Notes under the pieces: model-generated
Seen by the model: the letters and a program-made list of their open reading frames with translations, nothing else
Database searches by the model: none
What the model was told of the DNA's origin: nothing
Origin: Muricea muricata
Lineage: Eukaryota > Cnidaria > Anthozoa > Malacalcyonacea > Plexauridae
Direction: 5' to 3'
Assembly (NCBI GenBank): GCA_963855995.1
Contig: OY979724.1
Location: 11,330,032-11,394,031 of the forward strand
DNA: 64,000 bases
Shown: positions 16,720 to 19,700 of the stretch, in pieces
Layout of the letters: each line of letters opens with the position of its first letter
Position numbering within the stretch: the stretch's first letter is position 1
Translations under genes and position numbers: made by a program

Positions 16720-19700
16720 ATGCAAACTTCCCAGAGGAGAGTTAAAACTGCAATTGATCGTGATGTTTCGTCGCAAAGCTTTCGTTCAAGAAACGAAAAA
16801 GAAGGACCAAAGAGGACAAGTTCAGCAGCTTGGGAGGGCGTCCTTTCCACTACAAGTCCAATCCGTGGACGAAGTTTTGAAAATGTAGCACAAAATTGGA
16901 GAAGTTCGTCTCGCAAAGACGTGACTGACAGCGAAGAAGAACTGGAGGAACGGTCTATAGGGTTGAATCGATCGTCGATGTCCGTTGGCTTGAACAAGTC
17001 CTTTCCGTGGGGAAGTAAAAGCGAAATGAATGTACAAGACGAATCTCCCAAACACAGTCGATCTCCCAGCCCGCTTCGATCTTATTCAAAATTTGATCAA
17101 AGTTACAATGAATTTTTAACTTCCAGCAGACTCATCCATACTACTTCAAACCGTGAACAGCAAAACATGTTGGAGTATCTCATAGAAAAAATCAAGAGTG
17201 GAAACTATGTGGATTTTGCCGATTTCTTGCCTCATAATGTCCTAGAGTATACAGCATGGGATAATAAACACATATCTCGGACGGTGGACGGCTCGTCGGT
17301 ACCTAAAGTTACCGAGTTTGCCGAATGGGTCCAATGCATCATGCTGTACATTTCGATTCTATGTCAGGAATATCCTGAACGGATCGCGGACCTTTTAGGT
17401 TATGTGACAAACATTGCTATGTTATACCAAGACAGTGATGAAAAAGGAGCTTGGTTAAGGTACGACGAAGCATTTCGCAGGAAGGCCTCGTTAAGGAGGT
17501 TAACAACCTGGTCAAAGTGGGATAAGGAGTTGTGGGTATTAGCCTCGTCAAGTGAGGCGAGGCGTAATGTCAGTTGTAAGTCATGCCTCACGTCAATGCA
17601 TGATGAGGACAGTTGTCCATTTTCGCAACAAGCTGTGGAGTTTGATCACCTCAGAAGGACTCAAAGTCATGAAAGTGAAAGGTAAATTATTTGTTTTGTA
17701 ATATATTTAATAAATATTGTTATATGGCTAGTGGCTGTCATTAGATTATGTGAAACATTTGCACAAAGAAGGGGAAATGAAATTGGAAGAAGGAAAAGGA
17801 AGAGAAAGGAGGGAAATAGCGGAAGGGAGGAGAAGGGGGATGAGGAAGAGGGAATATAGAGAAGAGGAGAGGCAAAACTCTAAAAGCAGTATTGCCTACT
17901 GTACTTCTGTTTCATCTTTAAGTATTTTCATAAAAGTTCCAATCGCTCCAGGATGATTGGGAAAGGAAGAAACCTTTCCAAAATTTTAGGGGAGAGTAAC
18001 CCTTCTGGAATTTATATGCACCCTGATTCAAGAAATACCTCTTAAGGTGGTACTTCACTTTAGATTAGTTTTAGCTTGTTTTTGTTGACTATGTACTCTT
18101 AGCCTGATCTGATCATCGATTAATCTAAATTTATCGCTAGTATGATTGGCCTCCTAGGAGAATAACATTGAACCATCCAACATTAATAAAGTTTAGACAG
18201 TTTACAGTAGCTTCAAATGATACTAAGCAAATGGTATATTTAATTCCTTTTCTCTCAGAAAGGAACCTCTAAGCCCAAAGCAATCAATTAGTAACATGTC
18301 AAAGATGAGTCAAAGATTGCCTAAAGAAACTCTGGAACTAAAGTTTGCATTTGGGTAAGTAAACAAACATATTTGCAATGCTTGGATTACCCCACACCTT
18401 TCAGCATTGTGCAGTGAATTAGGATAAGGTCAACCTTAACAGTATTGATGCCATAGGCGACATAGAATGCAAGCTTCTGTCTCTACAAAATAGCAGATTT
18501 TGAAAGCCATTTTGACTTCCAAAGTCCCAATCAGATGTTCTGTTGGAAAAAATTCATGCTGTCAAGAGCTTGTTACATGAAAAAGAAATCCAATTTGGTG
18601 GGTTTTGAACTGCACACTTAGCAAAAAGTGGCGACAGGATTATGAGCAAGTACACATTCTGTATCTTGATGCTTATACTTTACTAGCGTGAGCAAATGAT
18701 ACAAAATTGTATGTTTTTGCTACCAAACACAAAAAGGCGAGCATGTACTGTCAAAATGCAATTCGCACTAATAATTAGAGTCTCAAGACTAAAGATTCTA
18801 TTTAATTAGTCTGGCAATTTCTCACTAGTTAATCAAGTAAACCCATTAAATGATGTAGTAATTAAAGTAAATTAGGTAGTCATAAGGCAGATTTTGCTTA
18901 ATTTTTCAGTTACCATGGCTATGATGCGTGCAATAATGTGTTTTACACCGCGTCAGATGAGATAGTCTTCCACACTGCAGCATTGGGAATCTGCTACAAC
19001 CGTAAGACACATGAACAACGGTTCTACAAAGGACATACTGATGACATACTCTGTCTGACCGTACACGATGATAAAGATTATGTTGCCACAGGACAGGTAA
19101 TGTACAGGCAGAGAATGATTTGGCCACAGGCACGGTCATACTGAGGGTTAGGGAGGTGACACCCTCCCCCCACTTTGTATAAGTAACAGATGTACCAGTG
19201 CGCATAAAATTATATACTATATACTGTAGCTTAGAGGAGTTTACCATGGGGTGTGGGGGAGTGGCTGCTATTTCCCAAAATATTCTATAAACCCCCGTTT
19301 CAAAAAAAATTTTCCCCTCTTCTGTTCTAGAGGTGGAGTCTAGAGAGTAGAAAATAAATTATCGCACCCCCCTCTCCCCAAAAAGAAATTATGGCACAAT
19401 CCCAAAACAGCGAAAATACGTCTATGAATGTTCTGAATGTGTTGTAGACTGTGAAAACAATCAGTTTCTAAAGAGATGAATGATGATAATACAGTTGAAT
19501 CTGGCACAATAGAAGGACCAGAATGCTGGGCTAGCTACATTGTTTACTGCCCATATGGACTAATTAATTGTAATAAAAGTTGTGATGATCCATGTTAACT
19601 GTTACATCTTGAGTACAAAATGAAACAAATTCTGGCCGTCTTGATATTGAAGAAAGAACAAGAAAACAATAGAGTCGACTTAGTTGTTTTCTTGTTCTTT

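Follow-up and report, generated by a model that had tools for sequence, protein, structure and literature searches.

The locus described here raises the question of whether the Gag domain of a retroelement has become the N-terminus of an EML protein, a binder of microtubules. In the window analysed, a stretch of 64,000 nucleotides from the genome of the cnidarian Muricea muricata (contig OY979724.1), a long open frame with Gag-like features lies directly upstream of an EML gene, on the same strand and with splice sites of matching phase (Table 1). The locus as a whole is best explained by a captured Gag of a tyrosine-recombinase retroelement (DIRS order) that now makes up the N-terminus of a one-module EML related to EML5 and EML6, an explanation that we favour with some reserve.

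Table 1 Features of the EML gene and of its probable first exon, in window coordinates
Feature	Position	Strand	Basis
Probable exon 1 of the EML gene, with its start codon, basic S/R-rich tail, Gag-derived domain and zinc knuckle	16720–17681	+	open frame, splice scoring
N-terminal tail, residues 1–147, pI 9.8, without family match	16720–17160	+	Pfam, pI calculation
Gag (capsid-like) core, residues 154–275	17179–17544	+	homology to Gag of tyrosine-recombinase retroelements, same genome
CCHC zinc knuckle CX2CX4HX4C, residues 286–299	17575–17616	+	pattern search
Phase-2 donor of exon 1	17682	+	splice scoring
Intron 1, with dispersed repeat at about 17902–18030	17682–18258	+	splice scoring, genome DNA search
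Exon 2: linker and start of HELP motif; in-frame ATGs as rival start	18259–18354	+	gene model
Exons 3–8 of the EML gene	18910–19096, 20061–20166, 20981–21175, 21492–21706, 22478–22666, 22963–23007	+	gene model
Exons 9–13 of the EML gene	25091–25382, 26201–26329, 26501–26766, 27406–27559, 28217–28312	+	gene model
HELP motif and two EML propellers, exons 3–13	18910–28312	+	Pfam, PDB comparison
EML stop codon	28313–28315	+	gene model

The EML gene is complete, comprising 13 exons that encode 977 amino acids, with GT–AG introns as modelled. The locus contains a single match to the HELP motif (PF03451, 31.7 bits against a cut-off of 27) and both EML beta-propellers (PF23409 and PF23414), and the EML part matches EML1 of PDB entry 4ci8 with an E value of 1e-115 and about 36% identity (217 identical positions in 597 residues of the query). 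The EML is thus intact, with a single module. Elsewhere in the window, an open frame upstream of the EML gene but on the minus strand (8932–9951) encodes a forkhead domain (PF00250); exons at 29340–31400 (+) may belong to a USP7-like gene, judging from a MATH-like stretch; and an open frame at 54073–55185 (+) carries a DDT domain, a PHD domain and, below threshold, a WSD match, as in chromatin remodellers.

Upstream of the EML part, 323 codons remain open after a TGA at 16711–16713; given how often stops occur in the non-coding DNA nearby, the chance of this in non-coding sequence is 1.4e-8. The donor that ends this frame reads AAG/GTAAAT, and the acceptor of exon 2 is TTCCTTTTCTCTCAG/A, in a phase that fits it. 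When splice sites were ranked with approximate weight matrices, this acceptor came first among the 59 AGs that were scored for the intron 1 region and 10th among 3674 on the whole plus strand, and the donor ranked 56 of 3961 GTs, with two GTs in the interior of exon 1 scoring at least as high. Codon usage in exon 1 scored above that of all 135 intron segments, a score that is mute on the reading frame because the two shifted frames scored about equally or better. Within intron 1, the repeat has similar copies on five contigs (73–76% identity), and a Vpu match (22.3 bits, cut-off 24) on a lysine- and glutamate-rich stretch was taken as chance. The first-pass annotation had described a 962-nt open exon with a regular phase-2 donor and a matching next EML exon, which the donor, acceptor and phase bear out. 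We infer the in-frame splice of exon 1 to the EML from the gene structure, in which the phase, the splice sites and the completeness of the EML all favour it.

The same junction is where a different reading would divide the locus, making exon 1 a separate solo Gag-derived gene or relic that ends at its own TAA (17683–17685), and starting the EML from a non-coding exon or from the ATGs of exon 2. This TAA is in frame directly after exon 1, the exon 2 ATGs stand just ahead of the HELP motif, and in the C4 EML gene of the same genome, described below, the first tblastn block of module 1 starts MSDRTAP... right before HELP. However, the TAA sits within the donor, as do 22 of the 1404 TAAs in the window at a score no worse than this, a fraction to be multiplied by 1/3 for the matching phase. 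Exon 2 requires an upstream exon, since its acceptor is the best of those scored in the intron 1 region, and exon 1 has remained open despite nearest relatives that are about a third identical. We regard the two-gene reading as quite unlikely, and consider it very probable that exon 1 is a spliced host exon of the EML gene.

The domain encoded by exon 1 has two recognizable sequence features, both of which had been noticed in the first-pass annotation. The order of motifs described there, W-x-x-YD-x-x-FR and KWDKELW, is present at 17452–17535 as W-x2-YD-x2-FR ... W-x6-LW, a pattern that was written to fit exon 1 and that had no match in 100 shuffles. The Cys/His end reported with it is an exact CX2CX4HX4C knuckle, a box of 14 residues after the Gag core that recurred in 14 of 200,000 shuffles of residues 148–320 and has no second match in the six frames of the window. 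Pfam reported no knuckle family in this region. Some Gags of tyrosine-recombinase retroelements carry such a CH-box. A passage of PMC6681497 gives CX2CX4HX4C as its form in Gag proteins.

No family was named for exon 1 by sequence searches of Pfam, NCBIfam, PHROGs and PDB, in which the best lines were insignificant (DUF5644, E 0.2; fibronectin, E 0.13), and a profile run against PDB named none either. Pfam scans of 11 family members gave zf-CCCH in two, otherwise single weak matches, and no family. The viral, phage and plasmid collections contained no relative of the domain; 27 stretches found there by pattern were not confirmed, and a single weak Thermus match (E 0.3) was set aside. The strict motif pattern had no match in the viral and prokaryote collections. 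A shorter pattern matched 5 stretches in viruses and 54 in prokaryotes, numbers below or near those expected by chance from a hand estimate. These stretches were dropped, as none aligned convincingly with the domain, the best alignment (E 0.15) falling at another place. Two single-sequence AlphaFold models had mean pLDDT values of 38.0 and 43.8, too poor for a fold search. The profile and structure check proposed earlier for residues 148–302 accordingly yielded no library family and no usable model, and the homologues came from a search of the window's own genome.

That search, covering 453 Mb, returned at least 150 matches to the domain at E values up to 10, the domain itself included. The best non-self match had an E value of 7.4e-13, and the best 29 others of the at least 150 matches had E values of 4.4e-10 or lower. 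In a blastp comparison within the resulting 30-sequence set, for which open frames were chosen by a YD-containing motif, all 29 other loci matched the exon 1 domain (E 2e-18 to 2e-14). Fifteen of the 29 loci (L075–L089) belong to one element family, with 99.5–100% DNA identity over a 378-base match and Gag frames mostly of 395 amino acids, as expected of a recently active element; L074 is 97% identical.

The relatives that were checked carry a reverse transcriptase and, at varying score, a tyrosine recombinase downstream of the Gag. RVT_1 scored above the Pfam cut-off in all five of the 29 copies that were checked (L061, L062, L063, L065 and L075), and in one of them it shares an open frame with the Gag-like domain. 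Further downstream of three element copies, RNase H was above cut-off in one of two frames scanned, and Phage_integrase in one of three pieces, the other two having sub-threshold tyrosine-recombinase matches (integrase or SAM-like). The continuous frame, L061:823–3375, spans 1041 amino acids, whereas in L063, L065 and L075 the Gag frame overlaps at its end with a separate reverse transcriptase frame. An N-terminal SAP domain was found in four of six element Gag frames scanned (L062, L065, L072 and L075), one of the four below cut-off, and the L065 frame has a CCCH finger above cut-off.

A Gag origin of the exon 1 domain is, on this homology, close to certain. By the same comparison the source is a tyrosine-recombinase retroelement of the DIRS order, an assignment made to the order only and not among DIRS1-like, PAT and Ngaro elements; the DIRS-type Gag suspected initially is upheld by the genome homology, the reverse transcriptase in every copy checked and the invariant columns described below. 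Ngaro elements are described as abundant in Nematostella, with 114 instances, in a section of PMC4157794. An unrelated host helical domain that carries the motif by chance would be consistent with the absence of a name from Pfam, NCBIfam and PDB searches. It is refuted by genome-wide homology to open frames followed by reverse transcriptase, unless those frames had captured a host domain, and is exceedingly improbable.

The rest of the element is missing from the locus. No Pfam match to reverse transcriptase, RNase H, recombinase or integrase was found at E 0.1 in the six frames of 12001–22000. Exon 1 therefore does not belong to a recognizable element, and the reading that places it in an intact one was rejected. 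A genome search that skips very common words found no further DNA-level copy of exon 1, all other DNA matches to 16000–18258 lying in intron 1; by that search exon 1 appears to be an intact, single-copy Gag from which the remainder of the element has been lost. The sole repeat pair bracketing exon 1, a 25-nt direct repeat at 16324 and 20462 (72%), was taken as chance. At a density of 150 matches per 453 Mb, any particular exon is expected to have 0.0003 matches on its own strand in the 2 kb upstream of it. Since a few such neighbours are expected across all genes, the adjacency of Gag to EML by itself proves little, and the phase, the donor and the absent element weigh more.

The extent to which the domain has been conserved was followed in two alignments, one of 16 sequences, also used for a tree, in which the 14 near-identical copies L076–L089 were left out, and one of 11 sequences (exon 1 and ten element copies), in which L064, L068, L069, L073 and L074 were also left out. 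The Gag core aligns from its first helix to the W-x6-L end, with 15 invariant columns among the 11 sequences, and in this smaller alignment exon 1 is 24–30% identical to the element Gags. Of the columns without variation across the ten element copies, exon 1 retains 15 of 20; its share falls to 6 of 11 for nearly invariant columns, 12 of 45 for intermediate ones and 6 of 54 for variable ones. Four of the five residues lost at element-invariant sites were exchanged within the group F, Y, L and I. Each element copy retains 20 of the 20–26 columns invariant in the other nine, and by this measure the divergence of exon 1 roughly equals or slightly exceeds that of L071 (20 of 26), which among the copies diverges most. 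In the FastTree tree of 16 sequences, exon 1 has the longest terminal branch (1.51, the next being 0.88) and groups with L061, L071, L067 and L070 (support 0.98). At the position of the exon 1 knuckle, several element copies carry one that is shorter by a residue, with a CCCH-like cluster ahead of it.

Relatives that are only about a third identical indicate an old split, and exon 1 appears, from these alignments, to be a long-diverged captured Gag domain. The gradient of conservation would be equally expected if most of the divergence had taken place in the element before capture, and part of the divergence of exon 1 may predate it. The same distances bear on a possible role in restriction, in which the domain would co-assemble with the Gag of the many element copies and tether them to microtubules. 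Active relatives may exist, given the 15 loci of one family that are near-identical in the Gag stretch, and core residues are retained in exon 1. An identity of only 25–32% to 15 element Gags over the core is, however, far for co-assembly, and we consider a restriction factor very unlikely.

With exon 1 taken as a captured Gag, the ancestry of the EML part determines what the capture changed. The genome contains five HELP matches, of which three lie on C4 within a span of 15 kb; the other two are on C10 and at the locus in the window. The C4 gene thus shows the three-module layout of EML5 and EML6, and the single-HELP gene on C10 is likely to be an EML1–4. The C4 gene (G000:C4:1165001–1192000, L104–L106, minus strand) is the nearest relative of the window's EML. 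Against the latter, C4 module 2 reached 633.5 summed tblastn bits, ahead of module 1 (488.0), module 3 (276.1) and C10 (252.6). On shared positions, C4 module 2 had 241 identities against 212 for module 1 (of 448), a slight lead of 135 against 125 over module 3 (of 270), and a clear lead of 167 against 116 over C10 (of 274). EML5- and EML6-type proteins have three HELP-propeller modules in one polypeptide; the window's EML has one HELP and stops at 28313. The exon preceding the module-2 HELP of the C4 gene starts in phase 0, which indicates that the phase-2 acceptor of exon 2 was not inherited from the C4 gene. Among the Gag matches listed, none is located within 5 Mb of the C10 HELP or the C4 module-1 HELP.

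In PMC9325236, EML1–4 are described as requiring a coiled coil and a basic region for microtubule binding, and EML5 and EML6 as being without the N-terminal domain that EML1–4 use for trimerization and microtubule binding. Because the EML part is nearer to an EML5/6-type gene, and EML5 and EML6 have no N-terminal coiled coil, the Gag domain most likely joined an EML that lacked a trimerizing domain, rather than being swapped for one. The initial proposal that Gag may have replaced the trimerizing coiled coil of EML1–4 is not supported, on the same two grounds, the lead of C4 module 2 over C10 and the absence of that domain from EML5 and EML6.

The predicted protein runs from the basic tail through the helical Gag core and zinc knuckle to the HELP motif and the two propellers. 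Self-association of the core would gather several EML propeller units and their basic tails on the microtubule lattice, and the resulting avidity would supply what the coiled coil and basic region supply in EML1–4. The tail (pI 9.8) would add affinity for microtubules, the role of the EML1–4 basic region, and the knuckle may contribute RNA binding. For multimerization as the predicted function of the core, we put the chance a little short of even.

Alternatively, the protein could be mainly an RNA adaptor, its core and knuckle binding RNA and its propellers docking that RNA on microtubules; EMAP is reportedly found in microtubule–ribosome complexes, by the title of a study cited in PMC9325236, which counts towards this role. 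The CX2CX4HX4C knuckle is intact, and CH-boxes in Gag bind nucleic acid according to a passage of PMC6681497. Exon 1 does not, however, show the CCCH-like cluster found ahead of the knuckle in several element copies. The glycine usual in such knuckles is also absent, and a mainly RNA-adapting role seems unlikely. We suggest tentatively that a domesticated Gag forms a multimerizing, possibly RNA-binding N-terminus that would re-create the EML1–4 layout by capture in the EML5/6-type branch. A narrow search of openly licensed literature found no report of a Gag–EML fusion.

Set beside known systems, the EML part has its closest counterpart in the three-module C4 gene, above all in module 2, and shares with that gene a phase-2 intron inside HELP, but EML5 and EML6 have three modules and no N-terminal domain, whereas the window's EML has one module and a putative Gag N-terminus. 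With EML1–EML4 it shares a single HELP-propeller module behind an N-terminal region with a basic part, which in those proteins is a trimerizing coiled coil and here is probably Gag-derived. The Gags of the DIRS order (DIRS1-like, PAT and Ngaro) have a homologous core, with the 15 invariant columns and a zinc knuckle behind it, but their elements have reverse transcriptase, RNase H and recombinase, none of which was found near exon 1, which has no second DNA-level copy in the search made. Frequent N-terminal SAP domains and, in one case, a CCCH finger also distinguish the element Gags from exon 1, in which Pfam finds neither. To our knowledge, known domesticated Gags come from Ty3/Gypsy-type elements and are mostly free capsid-like proteins. 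Arc, RTL/SIRH, PEG10 and PNMA resemble exon 1 in being solo Gags retained in a host without the rest of the element, but differ in their Ty3/Gypsy-type origin, the exon 1 domain deriving in all probability from a tyrosine-recombinase element and being probably fused to a microtubule protein. Such a fusion would make the convergent evolution of the EML N-terminus testable, and a tyrosine-recombinase Gag joined to a microtubule binder would add to the domesticated Gags a second class of source and a new kind of use.
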